A stretch of DNA of 64,000 nt from Candidatus Gastranaerophilales bacterium (GTDB taxonomy: Bacteria > Cyanobacteriota > Vampirovibrionia > Gastranaerophilales > Gastranaerophilaceae). The first letter of the stretch is position 1. Each line of letters begins with the position of its first letter. A program made the position numbers and the translations under genes. Under the pieces are notes generated by a model. The model saw only the letters and a program-made list of their open reading frames with translations. It was not told the DNA's origin and did not search any database. The DNA lies in assembly GCA_944326565.1 (NCBI GenBank), contig CALVEL010000001.1, positions 62,001 through 126,000 of the forward strand, written 5' to 3'. Positions 7,349 to 59,363 of the stretch are shown piece by piece.

Positions 7349-7367
7349 TTTGTCGTAGGCGGGACTT
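7349..7367. repeat. Partial copy of the tRNA-Leu 3' end
   Basis: GTCGTAGGCGGGACTTG here repeats the 3'-terminal part of the tRNA-Leu gene at 7570 in the same orientation, then diverges. The following ~130 bases are more GC-rich than the surroundings and contain GGATTTGC/GCAAATCC arms (about 7372 and 7480) and the palindrome TTGAACCTAAGGTTCAA. This looks like an attachment-site scar or a decayed tRNA copy. Confidence 0.55.
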
Positions 7368-7530
7368 GTCTTGGATTTGCTCCACGCTCGGAAAGTTTCG
7401 CTTTTTGAACCTAAGGTTCAATGCCGCTCAATTTCCTCGCTATCCAGACTAACTCCATTCTGTCGTGTCGTCCGTCCGCAAATCCGCTGAACCTGTTATT
7501 TTGCGTTTCGCGTCAATACCATCATACCAT

Positions 7531-7565: not shown

Positions 7566-7649
7566 TGGTGTCGTAGGCGGGACTTGAACCCGCACGGATC
7601 TCTCCACACGCCCCTCAAACGTGCGCGTATACCATTCCGCCACTACGAC
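7566..7649 (-). tRNA. tRNA-Leu (anticodon GAG)
   Basis: The minus strand folds as a class II tRNA. The acceptor stem is GTCGTAG with CTACGAC, the D arm is GCGGAATGGTATACGC, the anticodon arm is CACGT-TTGAGGG-GCGTG with anticodon GAG, there is a long variable arm, and the T arm contains GGTTCAAGTCC. CCA is encoded (7568 to 7566). It reads CUC/CUU leucine codons. Confidence 0.95.
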
Positions 7650-8035
7650 ATAACATCAATATTAAATTTTCACTTTTTCTGAACGAACTGCCAGTGGCGG
7701 AAGTGTTCCGATTCTCTTCACACTCTCCATTTTTTAATACTTAATTAAAAAATGGAGTCCTTGCCACTACGATAAAACAATTAATATTAAATTTTCAAAA
7801 TTATCGAAATACCACTGTGGCGGAAGTACACGCTTCACTTAGTACCCTCTCGAAAAATAACATTCAGTTATTTTTCTCGGCAGAGTGCCACTATTACATA
7901 ACAAACTCTATTAAATTTTCACTGTTTTCGAATGAATATCCTGTGGCGGAAGTGTTCCGATACTCTTCACACCCTCCATTTTTTAATACTCAATTAAAAA
8001 ATGGAGTCCTTGCCACTATGATATATTGACCTTTA
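7640..8035. repeat. Tandem array of ~124-bp palindromic repeats next to tRNA-Leu
   Basis: GCCACTA occurs at 7640 (inside the tRNA 5' end), 7763, 7887 and 8012, spacing 123-125 bases. Each unit has a conserved spacer (ATTAAATTTTCA), then GTGGCGGAAGT, a perfect or near-perfect hairpin, then GCCACT. In units 1 and 3 the hairpin arms are CTCCATTTTTTAAT and ATTAAAAAATGGAG. In unit 2 they are replaced by CGAAAAATAAC and GTTATTTTTCTCG, so pairing is kept while sequence changes. The outer AGTGGC/GCCACT pair closes each unit. The unit edge matches the tRNA acceptor region, suggesting a tRNA-derived origin. Confidence 0.8.
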
Positions 8036-8132
8036 TTAAATTGTCATTTCAGCCTTAAAATTACAAAAAGTGCAATCTTTCAACTGCACTTTTCAATATA
8101 CCATAAAATATTTTAAAATCAATGAATTCTTT

Positions 8133-8924
8133 CTACATCCAATCACAAGCGTCATGATTACAGAGTGTTTTTTCTAAATCAATCATTACTTCCTCTTTTG
8201 TCATTTCATAAGTTACAGGTGTAATGGATATTTTGTTATTTTTTACTGCTGCCATATCGGTATTTGCATCCATCGGCTCAGTTGTTAACTCTCCTGCCAT
8301 CCAGTAGTAGACCTTGCCTCTCGGGTCTGTGCGTTTTTCATAAGTGTTTGTAAACATCTTTCCGCCCAATTCTGTTATTGCAACCCCTGCAATATCATCT
8401 GCATCTAATAGTGGTACATTTACATTAAGTAGCGTTTTTTTAGGAAAATTAAATCCTTTCAAACGTTTTAGCATTCCTCTTACAAATTTTGCTGTAAATT
8501 CAAAATTTTCATAATCTGTCTGCATGCTTGCTAATGATACAGCGATACTCGGGATTCCCATCATCGCCCCTTCCATAGCACAGCTTACTGTACCTGAATA
8601 TAAAATGTCTGATCCTAGATTTGGACCATGATTTATACCTGAAATCACAATGTCAGGCTGCTCTTCTTTTGAAAGTATTGCGTTAATACCTATTTTTACG
8701 CAATCTCCCGGTGTGCCTGTTGTTACCCAAGTTCTTTTAGCTCCGTTTATTGGATCCAATTCTTCGACTCTTAATGGCGTGTGCAAAGTCAGTGAATGTC
8801 CTGCGGCACTGCGTTCTCTATCCGGTGCTATTACATAGACATCGTGTTCCTTAGAAAGCTCTTTTGTAAGCATCCTAATACCATTTGCTGCAATTCCGTC
8901 ATCGTTCGATATTAATATCTTCAT
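8133..8924 (-). CDS. surE: 5'/3'-nucleotidase SurE
   Basis: A metal-dependent phosphatase that removes phosphate from nucleoside monophosphates. The N-terminus MKILISNDDGIAANGIRML holds the metal-binding Asp pair (D8, D9). Further signatures are PDRERSAAGHSLTL, VTTGTPGDCVKIGI and SGINHGPNLGSDILYSGTVSCAMEG, with a metal-binding Asn in the last. Its 263 residues are typical. It is monocistronic on the minus strand, with AGGAG upstream of the ATG. Confidence 0.96.
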   Translation of the reverse strand: MKILISNDDGIAANGIRMLTKELSKEHDVYVIAPDRERSAAGHSLTLHTPLRVEELDPINGAKRTWVTTGTPGDCVKIGINAILSKEEQPDIVISGINHGPNLGSDILYSGTVSCAMEGAMMGIPSIAVSLASMQTDYENFEFTAKFVRGMLKRLKGFNFPKKTLLNVNVPLLDADDIAGVAITELGGKMFTNTYEKRTDPRGKVYYWMAGELTTEPMDANTDMAAVKNNKISITPVTYEMTKEEVMIDLEKTLCNHDACDWM

Positions 8925-40111: not shown

Positions 40112-40178
40112 CGTCATTCTGAGGGCAAAGCACGAAGAATCTTTTTATTTATATACTTTGCTAACGCTCAGTATGACG
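40112..40178. repeat. Short palindromic intergenic element (CGTCATTCTGAG type)
   Basis: CGTCATTCTGAG (40112-40123) and CTCAGTATGACG (40167-40178) are inverted copies with 11 of 12 matches, enclosing AAGAATCTTTTTATT. This resembles REP-like or MITE-like intergenic repeats known in many bacterial genomes. It lies between adhE and the 3' end of a prepilin-like gene. Confidence 0.6.
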
Positions 40179-59049: not shown

Positions 59050-59180
59050 AATACGAGAGGACACTTAGAAAAATTTTGAACTCCTCCAAACAGCACGTGA
59101 AGAAAGTTATTTCTCTGAGTGTTCCGGCTTTTACGGCTGCGGCTACAGCTGGAGATGTTCACTCCATTTCCTCTTGTATT
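59050..59180 (-). promoter_or_regulatory. Highly structured 5' leader, riboswitch-like
   Basis: On the minus strand, AATACAAGAGGA (59180 to 59169) pairs with TCCTCTCGTATT (59061 to 59050), 11 of 12, closing a ~131-nt domain. Inside are GGAG/CTCC and GCTG/CAGC hairpins, and a second helix in which CACTCAGAGAAA pairs with TTTTTCTAAGTG (one mismatch, one G-U). It lies about 40-170 bases upstream of the CPHG gene start. One part, GCTGTAGCCGCAGCCGTAA, faintly resembles the cobalamin riboswitch core but the B12 box is not seen. Confidence 0.5.
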
Positions 59181-59363
59181 TAAGGTTAAAATAACAAAAA
59201 TTTTATGTCAAACTTTTGTTATGTTTTATTAAATAAGCATATATATCTATATATATAATATATAGATAGTTAGAATTTATGTAAATTAATTTTTTTTTAC
59301 TACTAGCAAAAAAAAAAATTCTTAGGTATTATATATTCCATATAAACTTCTTTGGAATTATAT

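Follow-up and report, generated by a model that had tools for sequence, protein, structure and literature searches.

Tandem units beside a tRNA gene, each carrying a piece of the tRNA, are known from the rtT repeats of the E. coli tyrT operon, in which it is the 3′ end that is repeated, at one locus, while small gene-free mobile hairpins inserted in functional genes are known as Rickettsia palindromic elements, fungal mitochondrial GC clusters and double-hairpin elements. Short, many-copy palindromes that occur in groups, and whose stems vary by paired changes, have been described as REP and REPIN sequences together with the RAYT tyrosine transposases (PMC3733652, PMC3116915), and REP palindromes also serve as targets for complete insertion sequences that carry transposase genes (PMC1525189). 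The array described here, beside a tRNA-Leu(GAG) gene in a 1.87 Mb genome of the order Gastranaerophilales, resembles REP and REPIN sequences in having short palindromes in many copies, with paired stem changes and grouping, and RAYT genes occur in the order. Unlike REP sequences, the hairpin bears neither a GTAG nor a CGTC tag; its feet are ACTCTGCC and GAGAGG in 275 unique copies, and the one GTAG that the array contains belongs to the tRNA head. It also departs from the REP pattern (PMC3733652) in that no cognate RAYT gene is flanked by the same repeat, many hairpin-rich genomes are without RAYT, and the copies are concentrated at tRNA ends. As with the insertion sequences that target REP, one element is found inserted into a palindromic repeat, but here it is a gene-free hairpin of 40 bases that appears to enter the loops of tRNA arms and of repeats.

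The tandem units beside a tRNA gene and the tRNA pieces within them recall the rtT repeats, although here it is mostly the 5′ end that is repeated, many tRNA species are involved and an inserted hairpin is common to all. Compared with the Rickettsia elements, GC clusters and double-hairpin elements, the present hairpin has another sequence, is specific to the order, favours one tRNA position and forms tandem arrays. Imperfect hairpins in an array are likewise a feature of integron attC arrays; an attC site was considered and rejected, there being no GTTRRRY or RYYYAAC core on either strand of 7639-8046 and no cassettes. The element has the general features of miniature mobile palindromes and lacks both the GTAG/CGTC features of REP sequences and those of integron attC sites. 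Full-text literature searches, in which coverage of subscription papers was thin, returned no prior description of it, and nothing relevant was found on tRNA-linked repeats in Melainabacteria or Gastranaerophilales. We consider it probable that the inner hairpin of each unit is a mobile palindromic DNA element of ~40 bp which enters hairpin loops, and that the ends of the tRNA gene then duplicate and multiply.

The window is a stretch of 64,000 nucleotides from this genome, and all window coordinates are positions within it. Three tandem units lie directly 5′ of tRNA-Leu(GAG), at higher coordinates (7673-8046), with periods of 124-125 bases; Tandem Repeats Finder reports a single array at 7639-8046 (period 124, 3.3 copies), and direct repeats within it are spaced 124 and 125 bases apart (Table 1). 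A preliminary description of this DNA had recognised an array of ~124-bp units with a period of 123-125 at 7640-8035, which is real but runs on to 8046, and had placed the units after the tRNA; because the gene is on the minus strand, the array is in fact upstream (5′) of it. Read on that strand, each unit consists of a promoter-like TGAMAATTTAATA box, a spacer, the first 11 bases of the tRNA gene (the head, as far as GTGGC), an inner hairpin, a short second hairpin and the sequence TTCCGCCAC, an inverted tRNA start that is the inverse complement of GTGGCGGAA of the tRNA. What had been taken for a beginning within the tRNA 5′ end is thus a repeat of the tRNA promoter region together with these 11 bases. 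We propose that the intact tRNA gene is both the target and the source of the duplicated ends in the array.

Table 1 Features at the tRNA-Leu(GAG) locus, given as positions in the window
Feature	Position	Strand	Basis or context
Duplicate of tRNA 3′ end (antisense reading), head of one-copy unit 3′ of tRNA	7351-7368	plus	18/18 identical to 7569-7586
Second repeat family, CAGCGGATTTGC..GCAAATCCAAGA, in T-loop part of tRNA copy, between ACTTG and AACC	7369-7489	minus	Sequence; members at other loci
Intact tRNA-Leu(GAG)	7566-7649	minus	ARAGORN; Rfam tRNA 52.8 bits
Promoter-like box TGAAAATTTAATA of the tRNA gene itself (putative function)	7656-7672	minus	Sequence
Unit 1, nearest tRNA, type B hairpin	7673-7797	minus	Direct repeats, unit alignment
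Unit 1 structured block: tRNA head, hairpin, second hairpin, inverted tail; three-way junction	7694-7769	minus	Folds
Unit 1 type B inner hairpin, AAGGACTCC..TAAGT..GGAG	7725-7762	minus	R2 model match
Unit 1 promoter-like box	7781-7797	minus	Sequence; consensus scan also flags 7798-7769
Unit 2, type A hairpin	7798-7921	minus	Direct repeats, unit alignment
Unit 2 structured block	7817-7893	minus	Folds
Unit 2 type A inner hairpin, CTCTGCCGAG..TGAAT..CGAGAG, order-wide mobile body	7847-7885	minus	R1 67.5 bits, E 4.1e-12
Unit 2 promoter-like box	7906-7921	minus	Sequence
Unit 3, farthest from tRNA, type B hairpin	7922-8046	minus	Direct repeats, unit alignment
Unit 3 structured block	7943-8018	minus	Folds
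Unit 3 type B inner hairpin, AAGGACTCC..TGAGT..GGAG	7974-8011	minus	R2 model match
Unit 3 promoter-like box	8030-8046	minus	Sequence; consensus scan flags 8047-8018
Terminator-like hairpin	8064-8095		Between array and surE ORF
End of ORF, putatively surE by sequence	ORF 8133-8924		Upstream of array

For each of the three units, few or none of the dinucleotide shuffles reach the stability of its single-strand fold, with z-scores for units 1, 2 and 3 of -5.4, -2.1 and -5.1 as RNA and -7.2, -3.3 and -6.5 as DNA. Units 1 and 3 form a three-way junction whether folded as RNA or as DNA, and the fold of unit 2 is less clear. The middle inner hairpin has both arms changed and its pairing kept (GAAAAATAAC/GTTATTTTTC against CTCCATTTTTTAAT/ATTAAAAAATGGAG), as had been noticed at the outset; it is not, however, a compensated version of its neighbours, since the arms differ because unit 2 holds another hairpin type that recurs across the order rather than a drifted copy. 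This type A (ACTCTGCCGAG..TRAAT..CGAGAGG) stands between two hairpins of type B (AAGGACTCC..TRAGT..GGAG) in the order B-A-B, and the two types are also mixed in arrays elsewhere, as A-B-A (L068) and B-A (L084), both before tRNA-Pro, type B being found mostly in the window's own genus. In a set of 19 distinct hairpins of type A, every one of the 190 upper-stem cells is paired and 6 of the 10 upper-stem pairs change on both sides, which bears out the suggestion that structure and not sequence is maintained. Over the whole type A structure, 34 cells are doubly changed against 8.8 in shuffles, and slid controls collapse. The fixed parts are the loop (TRAGT/TRAAT) and the feet CTCTGCC/GAGAG, and the loop variants in a wider set are TAAGT, TGAGT, TAAAT and TGAAT, this set having been chosen by a scan that requires one of these loop patterns. 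The second hairpin of Leu-type units varies freely and still pairs, with many unrelated stems (GTGT/ACAC, GCGC/GCGC, GTAC/GTAC, GTTGGG/CCCAAC, GTTCCC/GGGAAC and more) and a mean of 4.97 pairs against 3.04 after the halves are re-dealt, a covariation between species. The lower part of type A (CTCT-GCCGA / G-AGAG) has a tandem G-A on its bulged strand that recalls a kink-turn.

The main rival to a mobile palindrome is that each unit encodes a small structured RNA or a leader that regulates the tRNA. In this view the unit's own copy of the tRNA promoter would start a transcript that folds into the three-way junction; it might serve as a decoy, for instance, or the units might act as additional promoters for the tRNA. 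Compensatory changes, as expected of a structured small RNA, are found in the inner and second hairpins, which are kept together with the outer stem across genera with covariation, and the 5′-side units lie on the strand of the tRNA. The TGAAAATTTAATA box precedes every unit with 1 of its 13 positions changed, against 17 of 36 in the linker, and between units 1 and 3 only 3 of 76 structured positions differ against 17 of 36 in spacer and linker, which suggests that constraint falls on the entire three-way structure beyond the inner hairpin, and hence selection on the unit; recombination with the tRNA gene could nevertheless make promoter and head seem conserved. RNA under selection normally tolerates G-U on one strand, yet the 954 inner-stem pairs of 106 distinct copies comprise 904 Watson-Crick, 9 G-T, 7 A-C and 34 other combinations, G-T thus being no commoner than A-C; T-G wobble pairs are present in the outer stem (P1) of some units. 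The lack of a wobble excess in the inner stem therefore favours a DNA palindrome, or else arms that correct one another. Moreover, the hairpin is also found in tRNA-free repeats and, in antisense orientation, 3′ of tRNA and tmRNA genes, and the tRNA is the sole Rfam match in the array region, the units themselves having none. On this balance we judge an RNA gene or leader to be unlikely, and favour the mobile DNA palindrome.

A covariance model of the type A hairpin (R1; cut-off E <= 0.001) matches 259 of the 286 genomes of the order, with up to 54 copies in one of them, and none of the genomes sampled from other groups of the phylum. When named species genomes were scanned, the record titles among the matches listed were almost only Gastranaerophilales, Melainabacteria, Cyanobacteria and uncultured bacteria; absence outside the order is accordingly stated for the phylum sample and for the record titles among those matches. 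A type A hairpin is also present in L197, a record titled Fusobacterium sp. that may be a mislabelled metagenome bin. The hairpin was not found in viral contigs, and phage records yielded three short partial matches, all in unannotated faecal contigs. The window's genome itself holds eight clear type A copies by R1, including that of the window array. One unit precedes tRNA-Pro(UGG) and two precede tRNA-Pro(GGG), two copies lie 3′ of tRNA-Leu(CAA) on the opposite strand, and one lies beside a putative tmRNA 3′ end with another 2.2 kb away. The tmRNA end, which ARAGORN did not confirm at that locus, is one that we take to be such from GGACAGGGGTTCGACTCCCCTCGTCTCCA and established knowledge of ssrA.

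The association with tRNA genes is pronounced, with 58 of 107 assessable copies lying 5′ of a tRNA on the same strand where ~2% would be expected at random (binomial p 5e-67; the count is of loci from the pattern scan, in which copies of one array are not independent). This is an underestimate, because several of the remaining copies precede tRNAs that were not reported by the program. When unit heads are set against the intact tRNA next to them, base 11 (GGC or AGC) is the last before the hairpin in Leu, Pro, Val, Lys, Met, Ala and Thr units, and base 25 in Ile units; tRNA sequence, where it resumes past the hairpin, restarts ~3-6 bases later. On the 3′ side of other tRNA genes and of tmRNA, the hairpin is antisense, and at tRNA genes it is situated around the T-arm. 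The gene order surE - tRNA-Leu(GAG) is shared by L002 (the window), L004, L005, L010 and L013, and the locus holds one to three hairpin units in all of these but L010, which has none; the presence of the array therefore varies at one orthologous locus, L010 and the window not being a strain-level before/after pair because they belong to different genera.

The hairpin is also found in the loops of unrelated repeats without any tRNA, where 3-5 bases are replaced relative to unoccupied copies. Thus the empty GTCATCCTGAGC-GAA-GCGAAGGATC corresponds to the occupied GAGC-hairpin-GCGAAGG, and the empty GGATTTGC-GGACG-GACGACACG to the occupied GGATTTGC-hairpin-T-GACGACACG, the empty sites being other copies of the same repeats rather than before/after pairs from one strain. 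Further host repeats are found beyond the GAGC and GGATTTGC cases, and the hairpin occupies many non-homologous sites, with counterparts lacking it both among repeat copies and at the orthologous tRNA locus. Nesting in the reverse sense occurs too, the hairpin's own loop holding a RAYT element in L163, a member of the GGATTTGC family in L017 and a 74-base insert in L238. Of the three readings put forward in the preliminary description, a tRNA-derived mobile repeat comes nearest, in that the head is indeed derived from the tRNA; the hairpin, however, is independent of it and sits in other repeats as well. In one genome (G063, L320-L330), more than ten near-identical type A hairpins lie within one dispersed repeat, CCCTCCCCAGATGGA-hairpin-GAAATTTCTTAATGAGC, as a recent burst.

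Within most other genomes the units of one array are 92-100% alike, and in one gut genome (G007) 10 of 31 copies lie at contig ends against 0.4 expected. Growth of the arrays fits both observations, and would help to explain assembly breaks beside tRNA genes in that gut genome. Near-identical units and contig-end copies would also agree with plain tandem duplication by replication slippage at the tRNA promoter, without mobility and with the hairpins merely favouring slippage, but we hold this to be highly improbable and already weakened by the dispersed copies, since slippage in one place cannot yield the same hairpin at many tRNA genes and in unrelated repeats. Another possibility is that the array is an attachment or recombination site where a site-specific recombinase working on the tRNA gene would add and remove units, in the manner of integrons or of elements that integrate at tRNA genes. 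The units are head-to-tail and each ends in a tRNA start, an intact tRNA is always left, and types A and B mix; against this, no genes lie between the sites, the heads differ in sequence between tRNAs and the hairpin stands alone in unrelated repeats. With the attC core lacking from both strands, there is nothing to support the earlier suggestion of a recombination target in the form of an integron-type site, and we regard a site of this kind as very unlikely.

For a mobile palindrome, RAYT transposases are candidate mobilisers, and their genes are present in 98 of the 286 genomes of the order. Median hairpin number, taken from the best 22 or fewer per genome and uncorrected for relatedness, is 12 in RAYT genomes against 5 in those without (p 0.001). 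RAYT presence thus correlates with copy number, yet is not required: neither RAYT nor a Y1 transposase was found in the window's genome, and RAYT was not found in ten genomes with at least 15 hairpins. A hairpin is held by 5 of 30 RAYT loci, and a tRNA gene by 9 of the 30. The RAYT genes are flanked by hairpins of their own (GTTGGG..CCCAAC), and because of this, and of their absence here, RAYT was rejected as the simple owner of the hairpin. In L163 (1218-2000), the apical loop of a type A hairpin is occupied exactly by a RAYT gene with its GTTGGG..CCCAAC hairpins; the type A hairpin is there a host site interrupted by the RAYT element, and does not form the end of that element.

We propose the following course of events. 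The body A-CTCTGCC-stem-TRAGT-stem-GAGAG-G would be copied into the loops of hairpin-forming sequence, usually right after GC and with replacement of ~3-6 bases, the target probably being single-stranded or cruciform DNA. Transfer RNA genes would be frequent targets, at base 11/12 in the D-arm on the 5′ side and antisense around the T-arm on the 3′ side. Since insertion into the only copy would destroy the tRNA, the survivors are those in which an intact gene has beside it duplicated ends that bear the hairpin. Promoter and head, now repeated, may then recombine and multiply the unit in tandem, so that insertion would be followed by duplication and this by amplification. The mobilising enzyme presumably acts in trans, and could be a RAYT-type tyrosine transposase or another transposase, or replication template switching might take its place. 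More speculatively, and with considerable doubt, a gene-free DNA hairpin could be copied into hairpin loops through the replication or repair of the host, or through an enzyme so far unrecognised, with a preference for tRNA D-arms and T-arms that makes the ends of tRNA genes expandable arrays across the order. If the account as a mobile palindrome is right, the element is very small, lands at a precise point of tRNA genes, mostly after base 11, and has a way of keeping the tRNA intact. One could then test if the loops of DNA hairpins are targets for insertion in living cells, and which enzyme or replication error copies a gene-free palindrome. The hairpin arrays would also offer a fast-changing marker for this uncultured order.

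On the 3′ side of the window tRNA, the 121-base insert at 7369-7489 is a member of the GGATTTGC..GCAAATCC family, and without it the copy of the tRNA 3′ end reads TGTCGTAGGCGGGACTTG-AACCTG, against AACCCG in the intact gene. With partial self-copies on both sides, the tRNA is therefore flanked twice by palindrome-bearing duplicates, with one type of palindrome in the D-arm and another in the T-loop, and insertion of another hairpin family on the 3′ side supports the general reading as mobile palindromes. The CAGCGGATTTGC..GCAAATCCAAGA family is found elsewhere in the order, where it sometimes hosts type A or sits inside it (L006, L017, L179, L234). An inverted repeat, GTCATTCTGA..TCAGTATGAC, at 40113-40177 of the window resembles a palindromic family that hosts type A elsewhere. 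The window also carries an AdoCbl-II (cobalamin) riboswitch on the minus strand at 59110-59187, which scores 39.3 bits, over the Rfam gathering score.
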